Origin: Terebella lapidaria
Lineage: Eukaryota; Annelida; Polychaeta; Terebellida; Terebellidae
Reading direction: 5' to 3'
Assembly: GCA_949152475.1 (NCBI GenBank)
Contig: OX424557.1
Coordinates: 25,667,462 to 25,731,461, forward strand
DNA length: 64,000 bases
Shown here: in pieces, positions 222 through 29,639 of the stretch
Layout: the number at the start of each line of letters is the position of its first letter
Numbering within the stretch: position 1 is the first letter of the stretch
Notes under the pieces: generated by a model
Told to the model about the DNA's origin: nothing
What the model saw: the letters and a program-made list of their open reading frames with translations, nothing else
The model's database searches: none
Translations under genes and position numbers: made by a program

Positions 222-834
222 TCGAGCTGGTGAGTGGTAAGTCAAAACTGGCCTATCAGACCGGGGTGTGGTCTGAGATGACAGCAGACAAAGCCGTGGA
301 TGGTCTCAGGGACAGAACAGAGCGGGGCGTGGAGTACTACAAGTCTGTGTGTGCTCACCCGGACACTGGGGACAGTAACACACCCGCCCAGTGGTCGGTC
401 GATCTCGGCGGAACATACAGAATCCTTACAATCACTGTCTGGAACACTTACCACAGTGGAGGTGAGAAACATGGCCTATATCCATCTCCGGTATCACTGT
501 TAAAAAAACTTGTATCATCATAAATCTGAAATACTGAAAATATTTCCAGGATACCATCGGATGCGGAACTTCGTGGTGGGAGTCAACCAGATCGGTCAGG
601 ATGACGTTATCTGTGGTAGCCATGGTGACACACCTGTACCTGCTGGGGGTAGTGAGACTTTCTCGTGTCCCGGGATCGTCACCGGGAGTGGAGTGTTCGT
701 GAGGAAGCTGCCCGAGGCTCCTGATCCACACCTCATCACCATCTGTGAGGTCATGGTTGAAGGGGAACAGATACCCACAACACCCACAACGACTCCAGCT
801 TTACTGACAGCGATTCCTGGAAATATGAATATAG
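222..834 (+). other. Copy 1 exons 2-3: first FTP (fucolectin-like F5/8 type C) domain
   Basis: Exon 2 (222-461) encodes VELVSGKSKLAYQTGVW, then DKAVDG, YYKSVCAHP, AQWSVDLGGTY and TVWNTY, the usual first half of an FTP/discoidin-like fold: AVDG metal-loop region, Cys-His-Pro, then the WxVDLG strand. Exon 3 (550-834) gives GYHRMRNFVVGVN, a CGSHGDTPVPAGGSETFSC disulphide pair and LITICEVMVEGE, the closing strands. Both junctions are phase 1, so the domain is a movable two-exon cassette. Exon 3 ends in a Thr/Pro linker. Confidence 0.85.
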
Positions 835-3800
835 GCAAGTAATAATATATCACTTGGGGCTCAGAGTTGAGCTACTGGTTCAATATTTTTTCCACAATTG
901 ATACTTGGAAAATTTCTACCAGATGTAAGTCCTCAAATCCCCTCAACTACATATGTATTATATACACTCAAAGCCTTTGTAGTAAAATTTTCTACACCGA
1001 CTTTATTCAGAACAACGGTCCCCTTACATGATGCGTGTACAGATGACATCAGCACATTATTTTTATACGTCTTTCAAATATATCAAATGACATTCAACGT
1101 GTGACGAAATAGCGTTCTTCCGGCTGCTATCAAGCTGACAGATCGATCGATTGTCTATCGAAGTGCCCAGCTAGTCTTTAAACTGCTACGACAAGGATAT
1201 GTTTTACCAAGACCTCTAGCTGCGTTTAAGAAATACTATGAACGTCATCATGATCTGGTTGATACATACAGCAAATCCATGTCTGCCATGCAACTGGATC
1301 TATTTTCATGTTAATTTTGGGGAATTCATGACGGGTGCCACTAGTGGGGCAGGAAATGCTCACTCTTTCCGGAACACCTGATTTCACCTCCTAATGGCCA
1401 TTTACGGGGGTTCATGAGTTTCCCTGTCATTTTTGTTTTCTCTCACTTCGTATGCCTGATATGACTTTCTGTCCCCGGACTATGAGATTGGATAACGGAC
1501 CCTGTTTTGTTTGCTCGGAATACTTAATACTGGGTATTGATTCCACGTCTATATCGAATAGCACGATGTATGTTGTGCAAGACACAAACAAATAGTCCGA
1601 CGTTTCTTCAATAATCCGAGTTTTTTTAGGATGATAAGACAATCACGGCCTTCACACACACACACATAATTCCAAATAAGTCCGATATTTTACTATGTCT
1701 GATATTAATAGGTCAATTCACAGTGTAGATTCTTTTAACTTCTCTTCTTAATTTCCTTCGTATCTCTCGTTTATGTCTAACTTCTCAAACTCTTATTCCA
1801 AAAGAATGCGAGAAAGCGCGGGCCATGTGCTGAGTGTCTGGAATGTTACTGCCTTGTGGAGCAGAAGTCTTGTATGATAGGTTGAATGTGATGTCATGTC
1901 TGGGTAAGCGTGGTTTGGTGTCTGGAAATGTTGTGATTGGAGGGGGTGAGATGAGTGACATCGTTTGCGGAGTTGTTTACATGTGGTGCGGTGGCTAGGA
2001 CGGTGTGTGCTGGATGACGTAAGGTAAGTCTGTGTCATGTGATGAATCTGTGACGTGTATGTGGAGTGAGAGACTGTGTAAGGGAGGGGTTTTGGGCGAT
2101 AACAGTCATAAATTTTCTACAAACGCCTTGGTGGTTATCAACACAACACTACTTTTGAACAAGGATCAACCGTGCCTCATATATGAAAATGATACATATC
2201 GTGCATGTATATCAACTGCAGCACTCAACAAGCTAACCAACCAAAGCGGCACCTTCCTTGACGATTCTCGCTGGACGTCAGACAAAGCAGTGGACGGTCA
2301 GTATGACGTGGAAGGAGCTGACAACTCTAATGGCTCACCAGACAAGTTGAGATACTGTGCCCGAGTGGACAGTCCTGATGGACAGCCGGCCGACTGGTGG
2401 GTGGACCTGGGGCAGCTATACACAGTCAGCACCGTCATCGTACACAACACGTACTGGATCGAAGGTATATAATCGTACAACATACTGGTAAAAAATTAAT
2501 TTATCGTGGCCTACACAACACGTACTGGTATGGAGGTAAGTCATCGTACACAACACGTACTGGGGCCAAGGTAAGTCATCGTACACAAAACGTACTGGAG
2601 CCAATTTAAGCCATCGTACACAACACGTACTGGAGCCAAGGTAAGCCATCGTACACAACATGTACTGGAGCCAAGGTAAGTCATCGTACACAACAGGTAC
2701 TGGGACGGAGGTAAGTCATCGTACACAACACGTACTGGTATGGAGGTAAGTCATCGACTCATCGTACACAACACGTACTGGGGCCAAGGTAAGTCATCAT
2801 ACACAACACGTACTAGAGGGATGGTAAGTCATCGTACACAACACGTACTGGAGCCAAGGTAAGTCATCGTACACAACATGTACTGGAGCCAAGGTAAGCC
2901 CTCGTACACAACACGTACTGTAGCCATGGTAAGTCAGCATACACAACACGTACTGGAGCCAAAGTCAGTCATCGTACACAACACGTACTGGAGCCATGGT
3001 AAGTAATCGTACACAACATGTACTGGAGCCAAGGTAAGTCATCGTACACAACACGTACTGGAGCCAAGGTAAGCCATCGTACACAACATGTACTGGAGCC
3101 AAGGTAAGTCATCGTACACAACACTCACTGGAGGGATGGTAAGTCATCATACACAACACATACTGGAGCCAAGGTAAGTCATCGTACACAACACGTACTG
3201 GAGGGATGGTAAGTCATCGTACACAACACGTACTGGAGCCAAGGTAAGTCATCGTACACAACACGTACTGGAGCCAAGGTAAGCCCTCGTACACAACACG
3301 TACTGTAGCCATGGTAAGTCATCATACACAACACGTGCTGGAGCCAAAGTAAGTCATCGTACACAACACGTACTGGAGCCAAGGTAAGCCATCGTACACA
3401 ACACGTACTGGAGCCAAGGTAAGCCATCGTACACAATATGTACTGGAGCAAAGGTAAGTCATCGTACACAACACGTACTGGAACCAAGGTAAGTCATCGT
3501 ATACAACACGTACTGGAGCCAAGGTAAGTCATCGTACACAACACGTACTGGAGCCTGGGGCAGCTGTACACAGTCAACACCGTCATCATACACAACACGT
3601 ACTGGAGCCAAATTAAGTCATCGTACACAACATGTACTGGAGCCATGGTAAGTAATCGTACACAACATGTACTGGAGCCAAGGTAAGTGATCGTACACAT
3701 CACGTACTGGAGCCAAGGTAAGTCATCATACACAACACGTACTGGAGCCAAGGTAAGTCATTGTACACAACACGTACTGGAGCCAAGGTAAGTCATCGTA

Positions 3801-6800
3801 CACAACACGTACTGGAGCAAAGGTAAGTCATCGTACACAACACATACTGGAGCCAAGGTAAGCCATCGTACACAACACGTACTGGAGCCAAGGTAAGTCA
3901 TCGTACACAACACGTGCTGGAGCCAAGGTAAGTCATCGTACACAACACGTATTGGAGCCAAGGTAAGTCATCGTACACAACACATACTGGAGCCAAGGTA
4001 AGCCATCGTACACAACACGTACTGGAGCCAAGGTAAGTCATCGTACACAACATGTACTGGAGTATTGGGAAATAGTTGTACACAATAACTACAGCCGAGG
4101 TAAACCATGGAGGTTAATCATAACCATCGAATGCTACCTACTCCGACAAAGATATACGATCATACAATCTAGATAAGAGGTAAGCATTATTCACAATACA
4201 CAACAAGTACCAGAGCAAATGTAAGTCATTCTATACTGTGATTTTTTTAACTCGTTTACAACATTTTTTGCCTTTAGTTCAGTCAAGTTACTTCGAGCGA
4301 ACTATTCAACTGGATATTGTATATCTGTGATACAAACGGCAATTAATTTACACAAACATGTCTTTCGGAACGCTATCTACGGAGCCGCTGAAAGGACATG
4401 GAAGAAATCACTTTTTACATATGGTTATTGCGTTCCCTCGCAATATTATTGTGTTCCCTCGCAGTATTATCGCGTTTCCTCGCAATCTGGATCGCGTTCC
4501 CTTGCGATCATATTGCATTCCCTCACACTCCGGATCGTGTTCCCTCGTGATCTCATTGCATTCCTTTGCAATCCGGATCGCATTCCCTCATGATATTATC
4601 GCGTTCCCACGCATTGTGCTGACGCCAATGACTTCTGAGATGGTTATCCTACAAGATCCCGAGGGAATGCGATCCGGAATGTGAGGGAACGTGATAATAT
4701 CACGAGGGAACGCGATAATATCGCAAGGGAATGCGATCCGGATTGTGAGGGAATGCAATAAGATCGCAAGGGAATGCGATCCGGAATGCGTGGGAACACA
4801 ATAAGATCGCAAGGGAACGCGATCCGGATTGCGAGGGAATGCGATAATATTGCAAGGGAATGCAACATTATTGCGAGGGAACGCAATAACAATGTGCTAA
4901 AAATATTTCTTCCATGTCCTGTCAGAGGCTCCCTACGCTATCTGTTTCTTTCAAAACACAAAAGTTTTATTTAAGCGAGGATTTGCTTGAACCATGGGCG
5001 CCGACATATTGCTTGGTTCTCGACAACTGATGACGGAATCCAAATGGACAAGTTCAAATTCGTCATAATAGGGGGATCGGGTTGTCAGTTGTCGTCAAGG
5101 TGCCTGCATGTGCGAGTAATTCCGAATCAGTTTACCTGCGTGGGCGGTCCCGAATCCTAAACCTCGCCCTTATGCAAATTATCCGAACAGAATCGCCCAT
5201 CACGTGCCAAAGGAAAACAATATTCGTTGACATGCAAACGACTGGATTTCAGGGAAAATTTATCATTGCAGTAGATTGCCAACTCTCACAGTTCTGTGAG
5301 CAGAAGTCTGAAAGTTTGCAGAAAAATGCCGTTTGATCTCCAGGTGAGGTATGCCAAGTTACAATACGACACCATTAAACATCGCAAAGATACTGGCAAA
5401 AAACGGTGTAAACGAGTTAGAAAAATCAGAGTTTACACAGAAGGTATCGGGCTTGGTATAAGTTAAACTATTTTCGTAATGAACGTACTGGGCACAGATA
5501 ATCTCTCTTTGTATTTGGTGTTTATGTTTTTATGCAAAATTGCAGATTACTTGATTCATAGGCTGATAACATTTTAAAAATGTAAGTTGATAGCCTGCAA
5601 CATATATAACTGGTAGGTCTATGACTCTTTTGAATGTTTGCAGCACATTACCGAATGAACTACTTCACACTCGACGTGGTCCACCCTGACGCTGGGGTGA
5701 TTGAGTGTGGTAGCTATAACTCCGGCACCCCCATACCCGAGGGAGGGACTTACATTGTGAGGTGTGACATCGTGGGACGTTATGTCCGCTTCAGGCGGTC
5801 TGGTGGAGACAGAGTTACGCTGTGTGAAGTGGAAGTGGCTGGCGAAATCTATGAATGTACGTCATAATTACTGTGCATCATGTATTTTTCTCAGTTATAC
5901 TTCTGTTCTATACTGTAGTTTCAGAAAGTCAGAGAGTGGGAACTGTCACACCATTTGCGTTCACACAGATTTCAACGTTTTGCAGTTTCTTACGACTACA
6001 CAAACCAATACGTTCAAGTAAAGGAAGGGAACTCTACAACAGTGACTATTGTATGGGCTCAGATCCCAGTCAGCTCAGGCCCTATTGAAGATTACGGGTA
6101 CCTGGTGGTGAACTGGCCGGACGGAGGTGGCGGACTGAAGGAGTATGTACCATACGACAGCACAGTGACAAGACAAAGCCTGCATCTGTCGGGCCTGACA
6201 CCAAACACCCGCTACCTGGTAGAGATCAGACCGTACAGACTCCAGGACGGTAGGAGGGTGTACGAGACCAGCTACCCACAGCAGAGTGTCACTACACCCT
6301 GTGGCGGTGAGGAAACAGTTTCGATCAACATGACAGCATGACGGAGGAGTATAATGACAATATCACATCGCTGTTGTCAGTGTTATGGATGTTTAATTTG
6401 GTATTTTGTCCTCCCCAGTACCCGATCCTGCTGCCAATGTTCGAACAACCACAGAAGCAGCAGCTGGAGCCAGACTGGAGAGGATCAAAGTCACATACCA
6501 GGTTAGTATGAGATCTTTTATAATGAAATGGTTTACAAAGTGTGCTACTTCATGTATGTTTGAGTACTTTCACATACCTCAATACTTGTCTGACAGTTGT
6601 CCCAGGTGACTGGGTGTAACGCTATAGTCGCTGTGTGGGTGGAGTACAGACCACAGACAGGAGGTGTCTGGCTGAGGATAGAGGCGGATACAGTCGGGGA
6701 TCCCATCACTGTGACTGTAGACGCCCCTGGTACCTACTCACTCAAACTCAGCATCCGTTATGACGGTCTGGAGATAATCCAGGGCTTACCTGACGTGGTT

Positions 6801-8501
6801 GTCAGCAGTTTACCAGGGACACCTGCTCCTACATCACCTACCAACCCCACCACACCTCCAACAAACTCCAAAACACCACCTACCAACCCCGCATCCACTC
6901 CTTCAAACCCCACACAACCAATGGACAGCAGTCTCAGCCTCACGCCAGTCGAAAGCACATCACTTGGTCCAGGTACATACCGTATTGACGCGCATAGAGG
7001 CGCATGCGCCTATAAGCGGATTTTCGCATTTTGAGAGACGTTTTGAAAAATATTTTTATTCACATAGAGGCGCATGCGCCTATATCCGGATATAAGCGCA
7101 CCCCATTATTCACATTCAGGCGCACCCCAATATTCACATGGAGGAATATCCCAATATTCACATACAGGGGCGCATGCATTCACATAGACACATTTTCCTG
7201 ACACGGGTATATATTATATCACATGAAAAAAACCTTGATTGATTTTTCCACGCTATCACCACGTACATGACCTATTGAAAACAATGGAGGGCAAGGTGTT
7301 TTTACGGAGATGAATCAAGGGGAAGGTGTTGCATATTGTGTTGTGTTGGGAGGTCAGATGTCGACCCTGCAGTATATTGAATGGACATGTGACTCGACAT
7401 GTTTACGCACACCTATTGGCCTACAGCGCGCAACGTGCCCACTACGGTCTTCTGCGGTAGATATGTACCCCCCTACCCCCACGGCACTATGCAGTATGGA
7501 TTTAGCAACAAACAAGTTCGAGTTCCATATGGCGTGTGCTTTAATTTTCTTTCAAGAAAGTGAACAAAACACACCTTGTGTGGTTTAGACTACTCCGATA
7601 TATAGGCGCATGCGCCTCTCACTGGATAATGGTTTCGGGTGGCGAAAATGTCAACTGCTTCACATACTGGCGCATGCGCCTCTATCCGGATATAGGCGCA
7701 TGCTCACTTATAGGCGCATGCGCCTCTATGCGCGTCAATACGGTAAATAATGTCAGATTGTTAGTCATATATGTCCAACATAAAATGGACAGAAGGAACG
7801 TTATGAATTGCCAACCACAAAACTGTCTCACACAATCATGTAGTTTTACTTGTTTTACTCGTTCGCAGGATTTTGTGACACTAGAGACTGTAAATGCTCC
7901 AATGGTAAGAATTTGCACAATAACGATGTAATTATATTATTGAAGGCATCGGTTCTACTGGCTAGCCCATGTCAGTTATTATATAAAATGAACACAACAA
8001 TGAGGTGTGAATGTGGATTCAGTTGCTTTCTTGTCAAAGATTCAGATATCATCATCGCCGTCTCTGTCGTCGTCTGTGTTGTGGTGATTTCTCTGTCAGT
8101 CTCGCTCACAACATACCTGATTCTACGTCACAGGTACAACAAAGTTTTATTCAATCAATCATGCAAGTACATCTAATTCATTTGAAATGATGTTCGAACC
8201 AGCACCGTTGTACTCACGTCCTCCCATATCATAGTTGTGGCAATGAATCACTTTCTTGTCAAGACGAAAGCACTCATCAAATTCTACCGATAAGAACGAG
8301 AAGCACACGTACATGAACAAGCAGCCAGGGAACCTGGGCCCCGGGACGACCAGAGACCTGTCTGCTCCAAACCCAGGCCTCCCGGACCCTGACACTGGCG
8401 TCTATGATGAGGTCAATGGAGCCAAACAGTACGAGGCCATCACCATGGCAACCAGAGAGCCTCCGCCACAAGAGGATGCCTACCAGCACATCAGGACCTA
8501 A
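222..8501 (+). CDS. Copy 1: two-FTP, FN3, stalk, transmembrane, tyrosine-tail receptor-like protein (intact, first exon outside window)
   Basis: Exons read as 222-461, 550-834, 2222-2464, 5644-5856, 5986-6306, 6419-6501, 6597-6972, 7869-7904, 8040-8133 and 8264-8501, all open and phase-compatible. Joined to a 61-nt signal exon like that of copy 3 they give 2,190 nt, about 729 residues plus stop. Order: FTP1 (exons 2-3), FTP2 (exons 4-5), FN3 (exon 6), FN3-like sandwich and Thr/Pro stalk (exons 7-8), 12-residue Cys segment (exon 9), membrane span (exon 10), cytoplasmic tail (exon 11). The family role of FTP domains is Ca-dependent fucose binding; cell-surface glycan recognition with tyrosine signalling is my inference. 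The window begins inside intron 1: its first bases match copy 4 intron sequence about 65 bp after that copy's signal exon. I know no named family with this architecture. Exon 3 uses a GC donor; the other donors are GT. Confidence 0.85.
835..2221 (+). other. Copy 1 intron 3
   Basis: Opens with GCAAGT rather than GT and closes at ...actgcag before 2222. Contains a 5'-truncated retroelement 3' end (about 1105-1440) and otherwise AT-rich filler. No exon is supported here. The equivalent intron of copy 2 is only about 250 bp. Confidence 0.6.
1105..1440 (+). mobile_element. Retroelement fossil, 3' end only
   Basis: A short C-terminal protein segment (QLVFKLLRQGYVLPRPLAAF, then YYERHHDLVD) ends at about 1314. 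It is followed by a tail containing GACGGGTGCCACTAGTGGG and GGAACACCTGATTTCACC. The same pairing occurs at 56,530-56,880 and, reversed, at 29,945-30,200. I associate this tail with a retroelement common in mollusc genomes but cannot place the family. It is a truncated, old, inactive copy. Confidence 0.5.
2425..4070 (+). repeat. 35-bp minisatellite, about 46 units, in copy 1 FTP2 intron
   Basis: The unit begins GTAAGTCATCGTACACAAC and ends TACTGGAGCCAAG, 35 bp. It is the end of exon 4 (coding IVHNTYW plus three residues) with its own 5' splice site, repeated head to tail. Most units keep AAG|GTAAGT, a near-ideal donor. There are no acceptor-like tracts between units. Copies 2 and 4 carry shorter versions at the same place (13,580-14,070 and 26,051-26,215). 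Confidence 0.92.
4234..5433. mobile_element. 1,200-bp DNA transposon with TA target duplication
   Basis: Ends read TACTGTGATTTTTTTAACTC on the left and, reversed, AACTCTGATTTTTCTAACTC on the right, with matching bases continuing to about 37 bp. TA flanks both sides (4232-4233 and 5434-5435). Copy 4 keeps the unoccupied site (gtaagtcattctacacagaagg near 26,421). No transposase is present. It encloses the foldback repeat below. Confidence 0.75.
4355..4960. repeat. Foldback with GAGGGAAYGCGAT repeats
   Basis: The left half (about 4430-4615) repeats CGCRTTCCCTCGCGATATT-type units. The right half (about 4660-4890) repeats their reverse complement, GAGGGAACGCGATAATATC and GAGGGAATGCGATCCGGA. Non-repeat arms continue the palindrome outward (GGACATGGAAGAAAT at about 4396 against ATTTCTTCCATGTCC at about 4905). 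Open frames here are by-products of the 21-22 bp units. Confidence 0.8.
5986..6306 (+). other. Copy 1 exon 6: fibronectin type III domain
   Basis: A single 107-codon exon, phase 1 at both ends. It reads SYDYTNQYVQVKEGNSTTVTI, VWAQIPVSSGPIEDYGYLVV, then SLHLSGLTPNTRYLVEIRPYR and YPQQSVTTPCG. The LSGLTPNTRYLVEIRPY segment is the classic FN3 F-strand with its Leu and Tyr core residues. Length is a little above the usual 90-100 residues. Confidence 0.85.
6419..6972 (+). other. Copy 1 exons 7-8: second beta-sandwich and Thr/Pro-rich stalk
   Basis: Exon 7 (6419-6501, VPDPAANVRTTTEAAAG..., phase 1 to 0) and the start of exon 8 (6597-6972) give LERIKVTYQ, TGCNAIVAVWVEYRPQTGG, DPITVTVDAPGTYSLKL and VVVSSLPG, which reads like a divergent FN3 or Ig-like sandwich. 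The remainder of exon 8 is about 55 residues dominated by T, P, S and N in PTNP-type repeats, a likely O-glycosylated mucin-like stalk holding the lectin head away from the membrane. Stalk length differs among the four copies. Confidence 0.75.
6980..7743. mobile_element. 764-bp palindrome-rich DNA element in copy 1 intron 8
   Basis: Perfect 37-bp inverted ends (6980-7016 and 7707-7743) start CCGTATTGACGCGCATAG and contain the palindrome GGCGCATGCGCC. TA is duplicated at 6978-6979 and 7744-7745; removing one TA and the element restores the copy 2 sequence near 15,828. GGCGCATGCGCC recurs near both ends with TATCCGGATA palindromes. No protein is evident; frames inside are short. Confidence 0.85.
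7869..8133 (+). other. Copy 1 exons 9-10: short Cys segment and transmembrane helix
   Basis: Exon 9 (7869-7904) is 12 codons, GFCDTRDCKCSN, three Cys directly before the membrane. Exon 10 (8040-8133) starts DSD and then runs IIIAVSVVVCVVVISLSV followed by SLTTYLILRHR, a single hydrophobic helix of about 23 residues with a basic stop-transfer end. This makes a type I membrane protein given the signal peptide seen in copy 3. Exon 10 is kept at 94 nt in all four copies and is the most conserved part of the family. Confidence 0.85.
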
Positions 8502-8506
8502 GATAG
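8264..8506 (+). other. Copy 1 exon 11: cytoplasmic tail with three YxxPhi motifs
   Basis: The exon completes RRKHSSNSTDKNEKHTYMN and ends at TAA 8499-8501. The tail holds VYDEV, QYEAI and AYQHI, each Tyr-x-x-(Ile/Val). The first two tyrosines are nine residues apart (YDEV-x5-YEAI), shorter than a canonical ITAM, and none fits a strict ITIM. Copies 3 and 4 keep all three (YDEV, YEAV, YQNL or YQQL), so the motifs look functional. SH2 docking after phosphorylation or AP-2 endocytosis are the two obvious readings. A donor GT follows at 8507, leading to a 3' UTR exon. Confidence 0.8.
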
Positions 8507-8676
8507 GTAATATTTTATATATATTATAGGTTTGACGATAAGTAGAATTTCACAGGATAATAAAACGTCAATTGTTTTCTGTTGAAGTGATTATGTTATC
8601 TTTCGCAATATTAATGTCCATACTTATTTTGCATATTACACTGCTTTACACATGATTTATCACAATTGTTTCACAG

Positions 8677-9130
8677 GAAACAAAGATCACGACAGGATTC
8701 GTCAATTTGAAACAAAATGACTGGATAGTAGGTTTGGTTATATTGAAAATATACTTTGCATGCTGTCATTGCCAACCATGACAGTGTATCAAAAATATGA
8801 AATATATGCTTCGTATATTTCATACGTTGATTGACCAGCGGAACATGTTTATTTTGAAAACGGTCCATAGAATTTACAAGAAATTGGTTGTGATGGGCAA
8901 ATACACTTATTTCAGTTGATCTTGTTCAAGACTAGTGTTTAGTATTAACGAGAGCACTAGTACGTGCAAAGAAAGTTTATATTATGTAGAAAATGCATGC
9001 ATTGTTTCCATGTATGTCTTGTATTGTGCAAATATTGAATCATATTTTGTGTTGAAGACTTCAGTTGGTGTATTATGTATACATGTTATCCACACATACT
9101 CCCTGAATAAAAGCATTGCTATCTTTTACA
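8677..9130 (+). other. Copy 1 3' UTR exon and poly(A) signal
   Basis: An acceptor (ttcacag) precedes 8677. The region is AT-rich and non-coding and carries AATAAA at 9106-9111 with CTGAATAAAAGCATTGCT context. The same block follows copy 2 (AATAAA 19235-19240) and, more diverged, copy 3 (23880-23885), which supports one gene per tandem unit rather than read-through. Confidence 0.6.
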
Positions 9131-12570: not shown

Positions 12571-13579
12571 TTTTAATAGCATGCCAATAATGTTTTGTTA
12601 AATCCACCGTGTGCCAGGTATTTTGTGATTCAAAGAAATATCCTTGCAGTCGAGCTGGTGAGCAGCAAGCATGTGCTGACCTATCAGACCGGGGTGTGGT
12701 CGGGGATGACAGCAGACAAAACTGTGGATGGTCTCAAAGACAGAACAGACCGGGGCGTGGAGTACTACAAGTCTGTGTGTGCTCACCCGGATACTGGGGA
12801 CAGTAACACCCCTGCACAGTGGTCAGTCGATCTCGGCGGCACGTACATGATCCTTACGATGTTATCTGTGGTAGCCATGGTGACACACCTGTACCTGCCG
12901 GGGGTAGTGAGACCTTCATATGTCCCGGGATAGTCACTGGGAGTGGAGTGTTCCTGAGGAAGCTACCCGAGGCTCCTAATTCACACATCATCACCATCTG
13001 TGAGGTCATGGTTGATGGGGAACCGATAACACCCACAACGAAACCGGCTTTACCGACAGCGATTCCTCGAAATATGAATATCGGTAAATATCAATGTATT
13101 ACTGAGGGACCTGGATCGGGAAACTGGCATGATAATCCAAGTAAAGATGGTGGAGGATGGTTATGCTTTAGCAATCATAAGAACACGTCGAGTCTTCAAC
13201 ACTCCCCATATGACTGATAAAATTCAACGGCTGGTGGTTTTAGTGACGTTTGGACAATGAACAAAATGTGTCATAATTAGGATATTCCTGCTGTACTTTA
13301 CATCGCATTCACAAATACGTCACATTCCCATTACAGCCCACAACAAGCCAACCAACCAAAGCGGTACACACCAGAACGATTCTCGTTGGACGTCAGACAA
13401 AGCAGTGGACGGTCAGTATGACGTGGAAGGAGCTGACAACTCTGAGGATTCACCAGACAGACTGAAATACTGCGCCCGAGTGGACAGTCATGATGGACAG
13501 CCGGCCGAGTGGTGGGTGGACCTGGGGCAGCTGTACACAGTCAACACCGTCATTGTACACAACACGTACTGGAGCGATG

Positions 13580-14070
13580 GTAAGTCATCGTACACAACAC
13601 GTACTGGAGCCAAGGTAAGTCATCGTACACAAAACGTACTGGAGCCAATTTAAGCCATCGTACACAACACGTACTGGAGCCAAGGTAAGTCATCGTACAC
13701 AACAGGTACTGGGACGGAGGTAAGTCATCGTACACAACACATACTGGAACCAAGGTAAGTCATCGTACACAACATGTACTGGAGCGAAGGTAAGTCATCG
13801 TAAACAACATGTACTGGAGCCATGGTAAGACATCGTACACAACACGTACTGGAGCCAAGGGAAGTCATCGTACACAACACGTACTGGAGCCAAGGTAAGT
13901 CATCGTACACAACACGTACTGGAGCCAAGGTAAGTCATCGTACACAACACGTACTGGAGCCAAGGTAAGTCATCGTACACAACACGTACTGGGATGGAGG
14001 TAAGTCATCGTACACAACACGTACTGGAGCCAAGGTAAGTCATCGTACAAAACACGTACTGGATTGGAAT
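13580..14070 (+). repeat. 35-bp minisatellite, about 14 units, in copy 2
   Basis: Same unit and position as in copy 1, directly after exon 4. The first unit starts at the authentic donor (GATG|GTAAGT), so the array visibly begins with the exon's own splice site. Confidence 0.9.
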
Positions 14071-16584
14071 CAAGTAGTCATATGCAACACAAACTGGAAC
14101 AAAGGTGGGTCTTCTTAAATGTACTATGCAAATTAAAATCATCGCAACTGATACATACTTAAGATATTTTACACACCACGCCGCCATGTACTATAGGCTC
14201 ACGTACGGGGGTGGGTTACCGGGTGAGTTATCATAACCAGCACATGATGGCGCAGATATATATCATAGCTTTTCACATTCGGGGTGGATATATTGTATAT
14301 ATCATTGTAGATTACTTGCTTTTCAGGCTAAGAATGATATGAATGGTAGATGTACCGTTATATACAGGGTGTTTCAAAAGTAACATACCACAAGTATTTG
14401 CCATATATCATGATATCATTGAATGTTCACAGCTTATTACCGGATGAACTACTTCACTATCGATGTGATCCACCCTGACGTTGGCGTGACCGAGTGTGGT
14501 CGCTATAACTCCGGCACCCCCGTACCCCAGGGAGGGACTTACACTGTGGGGTGTGACATCGTGGGACGTTATGTCCGCTTCAGGCGGTATGGTGGATACA
14601 GAGTTACGCTGTGTGAAGTGGAAGTGGCGGGCGAAATCTATGAACGTGCGTCATAATTACTGTGCATCATTATTTTTCTCAGTTATACTTCTGTTCTATA
14701 ATGTACAAATGGTTTCAGAAAGTCGGAGAGTGGGAACTGTCACATCATTTACGTTCACACATATTTCAACGTTATGCAGTTTCTTACGATTACACGAACC
14801 AATACGTTAGGGTGAACGAAGGGGAATCTACAGCAGTGACTGTTGCATGGGTTCAGATTAATGTCAGTTCAGACCCGAGCCAGGATTACGGGTACCTGGT
14901 GGTGTACTGGCCGGTGGGGGCTGAGGAGAGACAGGAGGATGTGCCGTACGACAGCACAATGACAAGACAAAGATTGGTACTGTCGGGTCTGTTCCCAAAC
15001 ACCCGCTACCTAGTAGAGATCAGACCGTACAGACTCCAGGACGGTGGGAGGGTGTACGGGACCAGCTACCCACAGCAGAGTGCTACTACAGACTGTGGAG
15101 GTGAAACAAAATGTGAAGAACTGTATTGCAATATCAGCTTCGATCTATGACTGACAAGACTTGTAAAATAATGGATTATCCTCCTCAGTGCCTGATCCTG
15201 TAGAAAATATATGAACAACCATAAAGATAGCAGCTGAAGTCGTAGTGGAGATAATAGAAATCACTTATCAGGTCAGTGAGAGATCAAACAAGTGACGTCA
15301 CGAGGTGCATTGTATGTATGTTGAATACCCAAAACATTTGATCATGTTTCAATTTCTTCGCGAATAGCTGTCCTCCGTGACTGGGTGCAACTCTATAGTC
15401 GCTGTGTGGGTGGAGTACAGACCACAGACAGGACGTGATTGGCTGAGGATAGAGGTGGATACAGTCGGGGATCCTATCATTGTCACTGTAGACGCCCCTG
15501 GTACCTACTCACTCAGACTCGGCATCCGTAATGACGGAGGTCTGGAGAGAGTCCAAGACTTCTCTGAAGTGGTTGTTAGTGCCATACCAGAGACCCCTAC
15601 TCCTACCAACCCCACCCCGTTTCCTACAAGCCCCACATCCATTCCTACAACCCTCACTCCAGTTCCAATCCCTGCTACACCAGATCCTACCAGCCCCACC
15701 ACCCCTCCTACTAACCCCAAAACATCACCTACCAACCCCGCACCCGCTCTTACAAACCCCACACAACCAACGGACAGCAGTCCCAGCCTCACGCCCGTCG
15801 AAAGCACATCAATTGGTTCAGGTACATAAAGAGTGTCAGATTGTTAGTCATATATGTCCAACATATAATGGACAGAATGAACGTTATGAATTGCCAACCA
15901 CATAACTGACTTGCACATGTAGGTTTACTCAACGAACATTTGTTTTGATTGATGAGTAACAATGTTTGTTTGCAGGATTTTGTGACACTAGAGACTGTAA
16001 ATGCTCCAAAGCTAAGATTTTGCACAATAACGATGTAACTATATTATTGAAGGCATCGGTTCTACTGGCTAGCCCATGTCAGTTGTTACATAAAATGAAC
16101 ACAACAATGGGGTAACATGAATGTGAATTCATTTGTTCCCTTTAAAAAGATTCCGAAATCATCATCGCCGTCTCTGTCGTCGTCTGTGTTGTGGTGATTT
16201 CTCTGTCAGTTTCGCTCACAACATACCTGATTCTACGTCACAGGTACAACAAAGTTTTATTAAATCGAAAATGCAAGTACATCTAATTCATTTGAAATGA
16301 TGTTCCTCTCATATCATAGTTGTGGCAATGAATCACTTTCTTGTCAAGACGAAAGCACTTATCAAGTCCTGTCAAGAGACCTGTCTGCTCCAGACCCCCG
16401 CCTACCGGACCCTGACACTGCCGTCTATGATGAGGTCAATGGGGCCAAACAGTAAGATGCCATCACCATGGAAACCGGAGAGCCTCCGCCACAAGAGGAT
16501 GCCTACACGCACATCGGGACCTAAGATAGGTAATATTTATAATATAGGTTTGACGATAAGAATAATTTCACAGGAATAAAACAT

Positions 16585-20960: not shown

Positions 20961-21058
20961 CACACATTGACAGTGCCTCTGAAGTACTTGCTCAAACACT
21001 CGCTCCACGCAGACGTCTCAGAATCATAGTGAGAAGAAAACTTCCTAGTTGTGGCAAA

Positions 21059-23249
21059 ATGGCCGTGTTGCTTTTAGTGACGAGTTGTCTTGCTGTATTT
21101 GTGTCTCCAGCTGTATCTGGTGACTTATATCTTACGAAATGTTATATATGTACTTGTATTGTCAAGTAGGTCTTCAAATTATCACAAATTTGTCTTGCAC
21201 TGGATTTGAGATTGGATAACGGACTCGGTTTTAATCGCTTGGAATACTATAACCCAGGGTTAATGCCAAATATAAGCATGAAATTACAACATGATGTCTT
21301 GCTAGTAATCAAGTTATAGCGTTACGGTTTTATTTTTCCAACTGCATGCCAATAATGCCTTGTTAAAATCCACAGTCTGTCAGGTATTTTGTTATTCAAA
21401 GATATATCCTTTTAGTCGAGCTGGTGAGTGGCAGGTCTGTAGTGACCTCTCAGACCGGGAATTGGTCTGGGATGACAGCAGACAAAGCTGTGGATGGTCT
21501 CAGGGACAGAACAGACCAGGACTTGCTGTACTACAAGTCTGTGTGTGCTCACCCGTACACTGGGGACAGTAACACACCCGCCCAGTGGTCGGTCGATCTC
21601 AGCGGCACATACATGATCAACTCCATCACAGTCTGGAACACTTACAACAGAGGAGGTCAGAAACATGTCCAATATCCGTCCCCGATATCACTGTTCAAAC
21701 TTACATTATCATCAACCTGAAATACTAAAAAATATGACATGGATTGTACCTCCCAGGATATCACCGAATGCATAATTTCATGGTGGGCGTCAACCAATAA
21801 CCAATGGTGGGCGTCAATCAATAACTGGATACAACCATTTTATCAAGAGGATATATATAACACACGTACTCGTCTTCATCACTGACGAGAATTGTAATCA
21901 GGCAAAATGCCCTCCTCAGTGCCTGATCCTGCAGCAGATTTACGAACAATTGTAAAGACAGCAGCTGGGGCCATAGTAGAGATAATAGAAGTCACATATC
22001 AGGTCAGTATGAGATGCCTGTAATTGACCTCATGCATTGTTTACAATGTACAGTTGCATGCTGAATTTTATTTACATTGAACAAAAGTGTTCACATACTT
22101 CAATCCTTCCGGAACAGTTGTCCTCTGTGACTAGGTGTAACTCTATAGTCGCTGTATGGGTGGAGTACAGACCACAGACAGGAGGTGACTGGCTGAGGGT
22201 AGAGGGGGATACAGTCGGGGATCCCATCACTGTGACAGTAGATACCCCTGGTACCTACTCACTCAAACTCGGCATCCGTAATGATGGAGGTCTGGAGAGA
22301 GTCCAGGTGTTACCTGACGTGCATGTAAATACAGTACCAGCTACGCCAGCTCCTACACCACCTACCGATCCAACCCCACCACCTAACAACCTAACACCCG
22401 CTCCTCCAAAGCCCACACAGCCAAAAGATAACAGTCCCAGCCCTAATCCCGTCGAGACCACATCAGTTGGTTCAGGTATATAGAGCATGTCAGTCCTTTA
22501 TATCATCAAGTAAAAGGCATAGAAGCAACGTTACGAGTGGTTGTTTGAATTGATCATGACTGGTAATACGTCATGTTTGTCTGCAGGATTCGGTAATACT
22601 AGAGACTGTGGATGCACAAAAGGTAACAATTTGCACAACAATGTCTTATGAACATTATTTAAGGCATCGTTTCTACTGGCTTACTAGTGCCAGCTGTTAC
22701 TAAAACTTAAATGACACATCATCGGGGTAATACGAATTTGCATTTATTTGCTTCTTTCTTCAAGATTCCGATATCATCATCGCCGTCTCTGTCGTTGTCT
22801 GTGTTGTGATGATTTCTCTGTCAGTCTCGCTCACGACATACCTGATTCTACGTCACAGGTCACAACAAATTTTCATTCGATAAATTATACAAGTACATCT
22901 GAATCATTTGAAAGAATGTTTGAACCAGTACCCTAGACAGTACCTCATTCCCTACTTTAGCTGTGACATTTAATCGTTTCTTTTGTTAAGACGGAAGCAG
23001 TCCTCAAGTCACACCGATGAGAACGAGAAGCACACGTACGTGAACCAGCAACAACTGAGCTTGGGTCCCGGGACGACAAGTCACCTGTCTGCTTCAGACT
23101 CCCACCCTCCGGACCCTGACACTGCCCCACACCCCCAGAATCACTGCGTCTATGATGAGGTCAATGGAGCCAAACAGTACGAGGCTGTGTCCATGGAAAC
23201 TAGAGAGCCTCCGCCACGGGATGGTGCCTACCAGAACCTCAGCACTTAA
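21059..23249 (+). CDS. Copy 3: shortened receptor-like gene lacking FTP2 and FN3
   Basis: Exon 1 (21059-21119) is the clean signal peptide MAVLLLVTSCLAVFVSPAVS with a GT donor. Exon 2 (21416-21655) is the first half of FTP1 and is open. Exon 3 (from 21757) is cut short: a small duplication (GTGGGCGTCAA twice) brings in a TAA and the rest, with exons 4-6, is deleted. Exon 7 21920-22002, exon 8 (stalk) 22118-22475, exon 9 22587-22622, exon 10 22765-22858 and exon 11 22991-23249 are open. Because exons 3-6 are phase 1 at both ends, skipping straight from exon 2 to exon 7 keeps frame, giving a signal peptide, half FTP, stalk, span and tail. The tail keeps VYDEV, QYEAV, AYQNL. It may be a truncated receptor or a young pseudogene. 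Confidence 0.7.
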
Positions 23250-26050
23250 ATTACTGTAATATTTACTAATAACTATAATTTTGGTTAAATATAATATCAC
23301 AGGAATTAAAAATTGTGGACTGTTTTTTGTTGAAATTATTCGTTATACCTTTTTGCAGTATTATCATCCGAACTTATTTTGGCTATTACAAAGATGGCTG
23401 CATGGCTCTTCCATTAGAAATAGTTATCAGTGTGTTCTACATAGTGTTTTTTATTATAATAAAAATATAGGTATGATTTGCTTTTCGAAAGCACAAATCA
23501 TGACAGTGTAGCAATGTATTTGTTTGATATGCGTGCTTTGTATGTTTTATACGTTGATTAACCAGCAGTTTATTTTGAAGACGGTCTCCACAAAGTACGA
23601 GACATTGATTGTTATGGTCAAATACACTTATTTCAGTTGATCATGTTCAAGGTTGGAATTTACTAATAATGTGAATAGAAGACTGTAAGCACAACAAACG
23701 TACTGGGATGTAATTGTTGCAGATATTGAAGTCAATACATCACTCGCTCGGCGGAGTATTGTACAAGTATTGCTTCATACTCTGAGTTGAAGAATTCAGT
23801 TGATACAAAACATGGGAAGATAAATTCATATACCTAATTAGCATACATTGGGATTCCATGCCATCCATGATACTTCCTGAATAAAAGCAATGATACCTTT
23901 TACACCCATCATAGTGTCTAGCTTGCATATGAACACATCACATAAAACAAAAACCATACGTATTACCATACATAACCAATCTCACAATCGAATTAAATGA
24001 CATTCGCCCTGCACATATACCCATTTGCTTCTTGTTTTAAAAATATTCTTACGTTGTACTGACTTGTCAAAATCTAAACCTAACTTTTGAAGTACCTCGT
24101 AAGCGAACCAAAAATGAGACGTACACATGACCGCAACAATAAATGATGATACACCCCGGATGCCAACCAATGTGTGTCTCGAGTCATATGACGTGAATTC
24201 GAGGTACATGAAACATTATGATCCTGATGATGAAATACACGTCCATCGAAAGCGTACATCAGTAACTATACAATATTCTTACATTTGAATGCATTTGCAT
24301 GACAGAAGCCCGGCTTCTTATGAACTTGCTCCAAGCACTCGTTCTACGCAGACGTCTCAGAAATTATAGTGGCAAGAAAACTTTCTGGTTGCGACAAAAT
24401 CACAGTGTTGCTTTTAGTTAGTTTTCTTGTATTGCTTGTGTCTCCAGCCGTATATGGTGAGTTGCATCCTATAATATTTTATGTATGTACATGTCTTGTC
24501 AGCCGAGGATATTTATTGTATGTCCAGCAAACACTATCTTAACTATTATATTTATCTATCACTCCATTCAATGTTAATACCGTGTGTGTATACATTTTCC
24601 TAACCCAGTGGCGTTTATTATATCGAGCAAACCCAAAGCGTTGTACATTTGTATGTTGTAGCTTATGATTAATTTTTAACTGCATGCATGGAATGCACAA
24701 TGTGTTAGGTATGTTCATGCAATGTCTGACAACTTGTAGTCGAGCTGGGGAATGGTAAGTCAAAACTGGCCTATCAGACCGGGGTGTGGTCTGAGATGAC
24801 AGCAGGCAAAGCTGTGGATGGTCTCGGGGACAGAACAGGCCGGGGCGTGGAGTAATATAGGTCTGTGTGTGCTCACCCGGACACGGGGGACAGTAACACC
24901 CCTGCCGAAGGGCCGGTCGATCTCGGCGGCACGTACAGGATCCTCACCATCACAGTTTGGAACATTTACAACATTGGAGGTCATGAGTACATGTATGTTC
25001 AATATTTTTCAATTCTGCTACTGTTTATTCCAATGCATGGATATAGTACAAATATCAGCAATCTGAATGCATAACACGTGTGTATTTCCCAGCATACCGT
25101 CGAATGCGTAATTTTATGGTGGGAGTCAACCAGACTGGTCAGAATGACGTCTTCTGTGGTATCCATGGTGACACACCTATACCTGCCGGGGGTAGTGAGA
25201 CATTCTCGTGTCCGGGGATAGTCAACGGGAGTGGAGTGTTCCTCTGGAAGCTACCACGCCTCATCTCCATCTGTGAGATCACGGTTGGTGGAGAACCGAT
25301 ACCCATGTCACCCACAACTACACCAGTTTTACCGAGAGTGATTCCTCGAAATATGAATATCGGTATGTATTGAACCATGACTATGAAAAATAATGGTAAT
25401 GGTTAAGATCAGTACAATTACACAAATACCGTGAATAAGCATGACGCCGCTGACCTGCTGGGGACGCTCCTTAATTCACAATCTTAATGGTGACTATGAT
25501 CCTTCTGATTTTCTGGTGGGTCACCAAAGATCATCCAGTTGATGGTGATTGGTTGCTCTTGTTATCATGAAACTGAACGGTGTTGTCACCAAGCATAATT
25601 TTAAATATCATGGTGAGAAATGTTTGAATCAGCATTCATTTAATAAAAAACAAAAAGTTTCCACAAATGATCTAGAACCATTCCTTCACAAACCGTCTCG
25701 ACCCATGGCTGGTACAACAACCAAGACAAGAACAGCAACAACAAGAACAACAATAACACGTTAACAACAATGACCACAACATGTATGTTCGTCCAACGCA
25801 ATTGCAGCCCTCAACAAGCCAGCCAACCAAAGTGGTACACACCAGGACAATCCTCAATGGACGTCAGACAAAGCAGTGGACGGTCAGTACGACGTGGAGG
25901 GAGCTAACAACTCTTATAACTCACCAGACAAGTTGGGATACTGTGCCCGAGTGGACAGTCATGATGGACAGCTGGCCGAGTGGTGGGTGGACCTGGGGCA
26001 TCTGTACACAGTCAACACCGTCATCGTACACAACATGTACTGGGTTGGAG

Positions 26051-26215
26051 GTAAGTCATCTTACACAACACGTACTGGAGCCTAGGTAAGTCATCGTACA
26101 CAACACGTACTGGAGCCAAGGTAAGTCATCGTACACAACACGTACTGGAGCCAAGGTAAGTCATCGTACACAACACGTACTGGAGCCAAGGTAAGTCATC
26201 GTACACAACACGTAC
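26051..26215 (+). repeat. 35-bp minisatellite, about 5 units, in copy 4
   Basis: Same unit as in copies 1 and 2, beginning at the exon 4 donor (GGAG|GTAAGT at 26,051). Followed by the same unique sequence (GTATTGGGAAATAGTTGTAC) that ends the copy 1 array near 4060, so the arrays are orthologous in position and differ only in length. Confidence 0.9.
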
Positions 26216-27007
26216 TGGAGTATTGGGAAATAGTTGTACACAATTACTGCAGCCGAGGTAAACCATGGAGGTTAATTATAACCATCGAATGCTACATACT
26301 CCAGAAGAGATATACCATCATACGATCTAGATAAGAGGTAAGCATTATTCACAACGATCTAGATAAGAGGTAAGCATTATTCATAACAAGTACCATCCAC
26401 AACAAGTACCAGAGCAAACGTAAGTCATTCTACACAGAAGGTATTGGGCTTGGTATAAGTTAAACTGTTTTCGTAATGAACGTACTGGGCACAGATAATC
26501 TCTCTTTGTATTTGGTGTGTATGTTTTTATGCAAGATTGCAGAATACTTGATTCATAGGCTGATAATATTTAAAATGTAAGTTGAGAGCCTGTAACATAT
26601 ATAACTGGTAGCCTATGACTCCTTTGAATGTTTGCAGCATGTTACCGAATGAACTACTTCACTATCGACGTGGTCCACCCTGACGCTGGGCTGATTGAGT
26701 GTGTTGGCTATAATATCGGCATCTCCATACCCCAGGGAGGGACATACACTGTGAGGTGTGACATCCTGGGACGTTATGTCCGCTTCAGGCGGTATGGTGG
26801 AGACAGAGTTACGCTGTGTGAAGTGGAAGTGGCGGACGAAATCTATGAATGTACGTCATAATTACTCTGCATCATGTATTTTTCTCAGTTATACTTATGT
26901 TTTATACTGTAGAAATAGTTTTAGAAAGTCAGAGAGTGGGAACTGTCGCATCATTTGCGTTCACCAAGATTTAAACGTTTTGCAGTTTCTTACTACTACA
27001 CAAACCA

Positions 27008-27318
27008 TAGACATAGAAAAGAGATGGACTGACAACTCTGATATCACTCTCTCTGTTTCTAGTCATTGAGCTTGATGTCACCAAAGGTCAGAGGAAGATG
27101 GTAGTTACACTTCCGTTGTCAAATTATAACGTCCTATTGCCATTGTTCATTCCTTACAATCCTCAGAGTGTTGACGTCACGTACGGTATTCGACGTATTT
27201 TGACAATTCACTTTTCCCATGAAACTTCAAACCAGAAATAAAGTACCCATGTTCCTCTGGTCACAAGCTCAAGGTCACTGAGGTCGAATTGGCAGTCCAT
27301 CTCTCTTCTATGTCTTTG
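27008..27318. mobile_element. MITE inserted in copy 4 FN3 exon
   Basis: Inverted ends AGACATAGAAAAGAGATGG and AGACATAGAAGAGAGATGG (reversed right end), about 23 bp with one mismatch. ACACAAACCA is repeated on both sides (26998-27007 and 27319-27328). Copies 1 and 2 show the uninterrupted exon. Confidence 0.75.
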
Positions 27319-28043
27319 ACACAAACCAATACGTTCAAGTAAAGGAAGGGAACTCCTCAACAGTGGTTATTGTATGGCATCATATTCGCTGTTGTCACGG
27401 GTATTAATGTTTAATTTGGTATTTTGTCCTCTTCAGAACCCGATACTGCTGAAAATGTGTGACCAATCACAGAAGCAGCAGCTGGAGCCACACTAGAGAG
27501 GATCAAAGTCACATACCAGGTTAGTATAAAATGTTTATAAGGAAATGATGAATACAATGTGCAACGTCATGTGTGCTTGAGTGTATTTTTTCACATACAT
27601 GAAACATAACTTTTTACATACCTCAGTACTTCCCTGACAGTTGTCCCCGGTGACTGGGTGTAACTCTATAGTCGCTGTAAGGGTGGAGTACAGACCACAG
27701 ATAGGAGGTGTAGATAGAGGCAGTTACTGTCAGAGATCCCCTCACTGTGACTGTAGATGCCCCTGGTACCTACTCACTCAGACTCGGTATCCGTAATGAC
27801 GGCAGTCTGGAGAGAGTCCAAGATTTATCGGACGTGGTTGTTAGTGCAATACCTACCAACCCAACCACACCCCCTACTAAGCCAACGCCCGATCCTACCA
27901 ATCCCATACAAACACCAGGCAACAGTCCCAGCATCACTCCTGTCGATAGCACATCAATCACACTTGTCAGCAGTGTTCCCACTTCATCTCCGACACCTGG
28001 TTCACAAACATGCGAGTATCTGAAAACATGAAAGGAACGTTTC

Positions 28044-28376
28044 AACTTAAAGCAACTGCCTTGGAAAACAGGCAATATTTTTATAACCATATTTCGTATA
28101 AACATGTGAGATTAACTGAACGGGAAATACAGTAACTGTTATGACTACAGCCAGTCCACTGAGAAATTTTACTCATTTGAAAAACAGTTCAAATATAGAA
28201 GTTGTATCCATCACACGCAGATGTAACCAATCATAAAAGTACAAGGTGGACTGACAATACCCTGCACACCACGGTATATCACTGATTATAACGGATTGGA
28301 AGACAACTCGGACGGATTGTTATCGTCAAAACCATTGTGTATATAGTGCACTCATTCAAAGGCAGTTGCTTTAAGC
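28044..28376. mobile_element. Small inverted-repeat element replacing copy 4 exon 9 region
   Basis: CTTAAAGCAACTGCCTTGG at about 28,048 is matched by its reverse complement (AAGGCAGTTGCTTTAAG) at about 28,358. No coding sequence. The flanks differ from the other copies, so the exact insertion site is not resolved. Confidence 0.45.
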
Positions 28377-29639
28377 ACAATAATTAACACAGTATGGAAT
28401 AAAACACACGAAGGTGTGGATTCCTTTGCTCTCTTCTCAAAGATTCAGACATCATCATCGCCGTCTCTGTCGTCGTCTGTGGTGTGGTAATTAATCTGTC
28501 AGTCTCATTCACAACATACCTGATTCTACGTCACAGGTAGGTGATTGACCAAAATGTTTGAACCAGCACCGTTTATACTGACGTCATTCCTTATCGTAGT
28601 TGTGAAACTGCATCATTTTCTCGTCAAGACGGAAGCACTCCGCAAGTCCCACAAATGAGAGCGAGAAGCACACGTACATGAATCAGCAGCCACGGAACCT
28701 GAGTCCCGGGACGACACGAGACCTATTTGCTACAGACCCCCGTCTCTCGGACCGTGAAACTGCTCCACTAGCCCAGGATCACGGCGTCTATGATGAGGTC
28801 AATGGGGCTGGACAATACGAGGCCGTCACCATGGAAACTAGGGATCCTCCACTACGAGATGATGCCTATCAGCAGCTACAAATAAGGGGTAGTGTACATT
28901 GATTATCATAGTGTTTGTTCCAAGCAATTCCGCATTAATCAAGTACGATCAGCTGTTTATTCAATAATTAACTGTTTTCATATTCACAGGACACAAGAAA
29001 CTTGATCCTGCATCGTCATGGCATGCAGTTATCAAAACAATATAACCTACTTTCCATGTAGTTTTTTAAATGAATAAAAGTTGTTGGTACATATCGTTGT
29101 GTTTCACCACCAATGCACAACAATGACCACACATAAATCAAGATCACAGAATTGAACTTGTTCGCTCACAGAAAAACTATATTTCACTGTTTTTCCTTAT
29201 CTTTTTAAAGATGAGTTCATTTAGAAATTCATGAAACGACAGTATGAAAAGCTAGCTTTTTTATGTTTTATCCATTGGTATTGATTTGATTATATGACCT
29301 AGTAATAGTAAACCTTGTGACTACCTACATCAAATAAAACTGTCGAACCGGGAATAATACAAAAGCTCTTTATCCTCACAGTCTCTGGAATTGATGACAA
29401 ATACAAATACTGATATGCCAAACGTGATTTTGACACTCTAATTGTGCCAGAAAAGTATGTCTCTGATCATTATTACATTGTTGTGATGAACACCCTCACC
29501 CCATGGTGATTTGTGGAATTGACCCTGATGGGCGGATATGACGCCAATGTGGAACCGGATGATGAATGAATCAGCCTTCAGCAGGTGTTTGATTCCAAAA
29601 GCGATTCATCACAGGCTTTTTCCGGAGCACCTAGTCTGA

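Follow-up and report, generated by a model that had tools for sequence, protein, structure and literature searches.

Paired receptors of vertebrates, such as SIRP, KIR, LILR and PILR, carry like ectodomains on different C-termini, and their clusters hold dead copies. Dectin-1, a tyrosine-tailed lectin-like receptor, is opposed by the receptor phosphatases CD45 and CD148, whose ectodomains are unrelated to its own. Passages of PMC3533184 define paired receptors as molecules whose extracellular regions are alike and whose signals are opposite, and passages of PMC10815196 describe how CD45 and CD148 restrain dectin-1 by dephosphorylation. Here we analysed a 64,000-nt stretch of chromosome C3 of Terebella lapidaria (OX424557.1, 25,667,462-25,731,461; hereafter the window), from a genome of 762 Mb in 438 contigs. 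The window holds four copies of a tandem family of predicted single-span receptors with F-type (FTP) domains, fibronectin type III (FN3) domains and a tail with four conserved tyrosines. In this genome, ectodomains of one type are followed by phosphatase exons in some cases and by a tyrosine tail in others, and in none of the cases seen by both. We consider the chances about even that the window genes form a tyrosine-tailed, non-catalytic branch of the receptor tyrosine phosphatase (RPTP) superfamily whose arrangement resembles that of paired receptors.

The tblastn searches with exon peptides covered 214 kb, made up of the window and flanks of 100 kb on its upstream and 50 kb on its downstream side, and splice models were built from the matches. 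Copy 1 has 11 exons (2190 nt, 729 residues), which join in frame with the sole stop at the end and give, in order, signal peptide, FTP, FTP, FN3, second FN3-fold domain, stalk, membrane span and four-tyrosine tail. This model bears out the first-pass annotation of the DNA, which had proposed single-span receptors with FTP, FN3 and a tyrosine tail; the exon blocks that it named were all recovered by tblastn, with strand and order the same throughout. The donors are GT in nine of ten introns and GC in the remaining one (after exon 3), and all ten acceptors are AG. Because exon 1 lies at -127..-67, the start of the gene falls just upstream of the window. In the coordinates used here, 0 is the base preceding the window and negative positions lie upstream. 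The exons of copy 1 are as follows.

-127..-67, plus strand: exon 1, signal peptide, outside the window (splice model)
222..461, plus strand: exon 2, first half of FTP1 (tblastn, splice model)
550..834, plus strand: exon 3, second half of FTP1, with the GC donor AG/GCAAGT (tblastn, splice model)
2222..2464, plus strand: exon 4, first half of FTP2 (tblastn, splice model)
5644..5856, plus strand: exon 5, second half of FTP2 (tblastn, splice model)
5986..6306, plus strand: exon 6, FN3 domain (Pfam fn3, splice model)
6419..6501, plus strand: exon 7, start of the second FN3-fold domain (tblastn, splice model)
6597..6972, plus strand: exon 8, second FN3-fold domain and Thr/Pro stalk (splice model, AF2, Foldseek)
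7869..7904, plus strand: exon 9, short Cys segment (tblastn, splice model)
8040..8133, plus strand: exon 10, membrane span (splice model)
8264..8501, plus strand: exon 11, four-tyrosine cytoplasmic tail, ending in the stop (tail alignment, splice model)

The link to receptor phosphatases comes from relatives elsewhere in the genome, which were found by exon-level searches with thresholds, so that the match lists are lower bounds. On the minus strand of C3 at 26.38 Mb, 0.7 Mb away, lie exons for FTP1a, FTP1b, FTP2a, FTP2b, FN3, the second FN3-fold domain and a span, in this order, followed by phosphatase exons; from their order and strand we infer that they belong to one gene. Its FTP, FN3 and second FN3-fold domains align with those of the window family (FTP2b at 38% identity, E 2e-11; FN3 at 37%, 3e-20; second FN3-fold domain at 32%, 8e-5). 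All five of the phosphatase pieces tested from it match PF00102, with E values from 3e-4 (the first piece, exactly at the cut-off) to 2e-15, and they include the stretch VVHC / SAGVGRTG, split by an intron, which we take to be the tyrosine-phosphatase active-site signature. Copy 1, whose tail ends in a stop, has no cytoplasmic PTP domain, and six phosphatase peptides of this kind gave, over the 214 kb searched around the cluster, a best match with an E value of 0.078. Across the genome, at least 170 phosphatase exon matches were found. They are clustered, at 8-12, 19-20 and 41-42 Mb of C3, at 41.1-41.7 Mb of C4 and on C15. Their number and clustering suggest that receptor phosphatases have undergone a large expansion.

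To count the two kinds of C-terminus, we surveyed the FN3 domain genome-wide. A query containing the FN3 domain of the 26.38-Mb gene returned 44 matches at E up to 0.01, to which one from the earlier exon search was added. Within 12 kb downstream on the same strand, 9 of the 45 matches had PTP exons, 15 had a tail, 21 had neither and none had both; within 3 kb the counts were 6 for PTP and 11 for the tail. The opposite strand gave 0 for each, and the upstream side of the same strand gave 1 PTP and 6 tails, as expected in tandem clusters. Like ectodomains with different C-termini thus occur in one genome, and where there is certainty about both ends the likeness is a distant one (32-38%).

Searching the whole genome with a C9 tail gave at least 23 matches with E values of 10 or less, of which 18 were below 0.05 (one of them only 19 residues long). 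They lie at 24.45-24.49 and 25.65-25.80 Mb of C9, 20.28 Mb of C1, and 39.13 and 41.96-42.16 Mb of C3, with weaker ones to 42.20 Mb of C3, so that tyrosine tails are present on three chromosomes. On C9, three sets of FTP, FN3 and tail matches run on one strand, over about 3.5, 7 and 3.5 kb. Tail and phosphatase matches are interleaved at 41.9-42.2 Mb of C3; at 42.05 Mb a tail match has beside it a span that ends, as in copy 1, with LRHR, and phosphatase exons occur in this interval too. A closer relative lies at 26.42 Mb of C3, with an ectodomain 61-82% identical to that of copy 1, exon by exon. Its span differs from that of copy 1 and seems to resemble the span of the phosphatase gene more closely, tail searches gave no match there, and the intron that holds a 35-nt repeat array in copy 1 seemingly contains a diverged version of it. 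This relative may be a phosphatase twin of the window family.

The window copies belong to a cluster of nine tandem units spread over 116 kb, from -87.1 kb to +28.9 kb (tblastn, splice models): U1 to U5 upstream of the window, followed by copies 1 to 4. Only three units, U1, U5 and copy 1, are complete open genes, the others being dead, shortened or disrupted. In the splice models U1 encodes 723 residues, and U5 encodes 556 with a single FTP domain. U3 consists of signal peptide and FTP1 only, and U4 runs from FN3 through the tail with stops. U2 gave no span or tail match and has retroelement-like frames, a reading of the frames made with no family search, downstream of its second FN3-fold domain; it was therefore counted as disrupted, and the idea that it is a soluble form was dropped. 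Between 28.9 and 114 kb, no exon match from tblastn was accepted as a further copy. The remaining units in the window are these.

12649..16524, plus strand: copy 2, dead, with a frameshift across FTP1 and stops in FN3L1 and the tail
21059..23249, plus strand: copy 3, shortened, with signal peptide, FTP1a, FTP1b, FN3L, Cys segment, membrane span and tail
24396..28902, plus strand: copy 4, dead, with a signal peptide lacking ATG, stops in FTP1a and FN3L1, and a broken FN3

In copy 3, FTP1b meets a stop after 13 residues, and tblastn of the exon peptides found no FTP2 or FN3 match. The earlier count of one intact, one shortened and two dead copies thus holds for the window, with copy 1 open, copy 3 short, and copies 2 and 4 dead, and the tandem birth and death proposed from it is seen again in the full cluster of nine. 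Phase-1 introns flank each FTP and the first FN3 domain in the three gene models (phases read by eye); this would allow clean loss of a module, and U5 is complete with one FTP.

The tail measures about 78-90 residues, and its four conserved tyrosines lie in the sites Y-V/M-N, Y-D-E-V/F, Y-E-A-I/V and Y-Q-x-L/I. We aligned the tails of U1, U4, U5 and copies 1, 3 and 4 with two from C9, leaving out the dead copy 2, whose tail has a stop at the third tyrosine. All four tyrosines were invariant in eight of eight tails; of the 78 positions in the copy 1 tail, 15 were invariant. The naive chance of four tyrosines falling within the fifteen is 0.001, a figure that ignores the relatedness of the tails and the general conservation of tyrosine. 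An immunoreceptor tyrosine-based activation motif (ITAM) reads YxxI/L-x6-12-YxxI/L, and the inhibitory counterpart (ITIM) reads I/L/V/S-x-YxxI/L/V. The spacing counted by eye was YxxV-x5-YxxI-x13-YxxL in the window family, with x7 and x13 in the C9 tails. Neither strict pattern matched in three tails tested, and an ITAM or ITIM tail was dropped as a candidate; an ad hoc loose pattern, YxxPhi-x5-13-YxxPhi, matched all three.

At the other end of the protein, joined copy 1 matched Pfam PF22633 (FTP/F5_F8 type C 2) in two stretches, at 6e-16 for the whole protein, and its FTP domains gave weak PDB sequence matches to striped bass FBP32 (3cqo, 1e-5) and eel AAA (1k12, 6e-4). By these sequence matches the domains belong to the F-type family. 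Unlike those F-type lectins, the window family would be a membrane receptor with FN3 domains and a tail, and the fucose motif is not matched in it. In passages of PMC5712786, the fucose-binding motif of F-type lectins is given as HX24RXDX4(R/K). Its strict form had no match in the five FTP domains of copy 1, U1 and U5, and none in a partial C9 FTP exon; a loosened pattern matched once, in FTP2 of copy 1, away from the expected position. In the FBP32 alignment, the motif His and last Arg are retained in FTP1 but Thr replaces the first Arg. FTP2 has Arg at the position of the motif His (by eye). The cation motif h2DGx (x = N, D or S) is represented by AVDGL and AVDGQ, in which h2DG is kept and the last position is not. 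Because the motif is absent from the FTP domains of all three complete genes, the fucose-lectin head of the first-pass annotation is unsupported, and we dropped that reading. The ligand may be another sugar or a protein. More generally, an annotated FTP domain is no ground for calling a protein a fucose lectin until the motif has been checked.

Pfam fn3 matched copy 1 once, at 4e-6, and the second FN3-like domain had no Pfam match. Structure prediction with AF2 covered the contiguous exon 8 piece only, from an alignment of three sequences, and returned a fold of four strands with a mean pLDDT (predicted local distance difference test) of 81.7. In a Foldseek comparison of this model with the PDB, the top eight matches were FN3 domains or an FN3 fragment, at weak E values of 0.016-0.08; an Ig-type receptor ranked ninth, and none of the 980 matches fell below 0.001.

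Selection on the complete genes was examined through the ratio of nonsynonymous to synonymous substitution rates (dN/dS) among U1, U5 and copy 1. For the ectodomain it was 0.34, 0.33 and 0.34 in the three pairs. FTP1 gave 0.23, 0.31 and 0.31, FTP2 gave 0.50 (one pair), and the stalk gave 0.40, 0.59 and 1.06. Selection looks purifying over the whole ectodomain, which appears to be under functional constraint. No diversifying selection was seen in the ligand-binding part, with dN/dS taken pairwise over domains or the whole ectodomain and not by site.

How does this family compare with the systems described above? With RPTPs it shares an FN3-bearing ectodomain and a single span, and its relative in the same genome joins FTP-FTP-FN3-FN3 to phosphatase exons; it differs from them in having a short four-tyrosine tail in place of a phosphatase domain. 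In one RPTP ectodomain review (PMC10815196), a word search gave no hit for 'discoidin' and one for 'lectin', the latter in another context. The FTP-FTP-FN3-TM-tyrosine-tail architecture was not named among the matches listed in titles and abstract openings of the open-licence literature, most subscription papers lying outside that scope. The layout had first been described as one to which no name could be put; the arrangement is real, but it is better seen as an ectodomain of receptor-phosphatase type with another C-terminus, since relatives with phosphatase and relatives with tail coexist. Like the vertebrate paired receptors, the family places like ectodomains on different C-termini. It differs from them in that no Ig or C-type lectin domain and no ITIM were seen, and the presumed inhibitory member, if it acts in opposition, would itself be a phosphatase. 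The likeness to dectin-1 with CD45 and CD148 lies in a tyrosine-tailed lectin-like receptor that would be opposed by receptor phosphatases, with the difference that here the ectodomains of receptor and phosphatase are homologous.

If the window genes are such a branch of the RPTP superfamily, the FTP/FN3 head would bind a ligand on another cell or on a microbe, in whichever cell type the genes are expressed. Clustering of the receptors would lead Src-type kinases to phosphorylate the tail tyrosines. SH2 proteins could then carry the signal from the phosphorylated tail, in which we take YxN to be a Grb2-type site and YDEV and YEAI to be Src-SH2-type sites. Phosphatase-bearing members with like heads would oppose the tail-bearing ones. 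It is possible, and we suggest it more tentatively than the placement among RPTPs, that this is an invertebrate paired-receptor system without Ig or C-type lectin domains: an FTP-FN3 superfamily on several chromosomes, with opposed PTP and four-tyrosine forms, whose off-switch would be a phosphatase of the same family and not an ITIM that recruits one. If both forms share ligands, paired-receptor logic would have arisen apart from that of vertebrates, and its inhibitory arm would consist of homologous receptor phosphatases. Copy 1, U1, U5 and the 26.38-Mb phosphatase are clear candidates for studying the balance of activating and inhibitory surface recognition in animals without antibodies. 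Passages of PMC7895826 report expanded fucolectin genes in the mollusc Gigantopelta, and passages of PMC9731998 report raised PTPRJ- and PTPRC-annotated genes in parasite-resistant Pinna, another mollusc. These reports only make an immune role thinkable. A haemocyanin check (PF14830) for mollusc origin of the present DNA drew no hit, and none came from the 14 controls either.

Several observations weigh against placing the window genes in this way. The gene models are predictions from genomic sequence. In the parts that align, the proven phosphatase relative has no more than the 32-38% identity given above, and its FTP2b exon alone has no Pfam match at E 0.01. For the closer 26.42-Mb relative, one has to go 23-24 kb downstream to reach the first of the listed phosphatase exons, and a link between them is only putative. 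In the FN3 survey, five of the 15 tail-linked matches are the window cluster itself (U1, U4, U5, copies 1 and 2), and three on C9 share one tail exon. The 21 matches with neither end, nearly half of the 45, may have missed ends, other ends or be dead copies. As for the tail, its dN/dS is uneven (1.27, 0.65 and 0.41, from few sites), and with the strict ITAM and ITIM patterns unmatched its type of signalling is a guess.

Other explanations for such tails and heads have to be weighed against signalling. YxxPhi is a sorting signal, and YEAI, YQHI/L and YDEV all fit it, so these proteins could be endocytic or scavenger receptors that use AP-2 sorting signals to clear glycoprotein or microbial ligands without kinase signalling. 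F-type lectins are also implicated in immune recognition in passages of PMC5712786. However, four invariant tyrosines with conserved surroundings across chromosomes would exceed the needs of sorting, and the site Y-V/M-N is not YxxPhi; we regard this explanation as unlikely. A somewhat smaller probability goes to RPTP decoys. These would be paralogues lacking catalysis that either compete with RPTPs for ligand or pair with them, and their tail would serve mainly as an anchor or for sorting. In favour of decoys, this genome has related ectodomains of which some carry a phosphatase and others do not, and single-FTP and shortened forms do exist, but a pure decoy needs no conserved tail, and the tyrosines did not vary in any of the eight aligned here.

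The heads could also recognise gametes or self instead of pathogens. Birth and death fits self-recognition loci equally well, and passages of PMC5712786 ascribe the diversification of mollusc F-type lectins partly to bindins. Those same passages, however, make no mention of signalling bindins, and the ectodomain taken whole has no sign of diversifying selection, which leaves this role improbable. Finally, with only three of nine units complete and the rest dead, cut short or disrupted, the cluster might be decaying without present function. The three open genes, their usable splice sites and an ectodomain dN/dS near 0.33 argue against this, and we give it very little credence.

Some features of copy 1 deserve mention in their own right. 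The intron after exon 3 (834-835) is GC-AG, and U1 has a GT donor there. The Cys exon was matched in copy 1 and copy 2 (11 of 11 residues), less exactly in copy 3 and U4, and tblastn gave no match to it in the complete genes U1 and U5; it is perhaps an optional cassette. The intron after exon 4 holds a repeat array.

2512..4062, plus strand: 35-nt minisatellite, 43.5 units, in the copy 1 intron after exon 4 (TRF)

The same minisatellite, again in the intron after exon 4, recurs at 13549-14063 (14.7 units) and at 26020-26220 (5.7 units). Its unit resembles the end of exon 4 together with that exon's own 5' splice site, and in the copy 1 array TACTGG...GGTAAG is present in 32 units, giving dozens of possible decoy donors at the start of the intron.

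Beyond the receptor cluster, a second set of repeated units occupies 30571-53052, near 31.0, 33.7, 38.4, 40.6, 46.8 and 52.5 kb; the units are up to 99% alike, and the six frames tested from them had no Pfam match at E 0.01. On the minus strand at 55949-58887, a YqaJ recombinase-like frame (PF09588, 1e-10) lies beside a Mutator-like transposase that is divided between two frames (PF20700, 1.5e-47 and 1.4e-20), and this element is apparently a DNA transposon.

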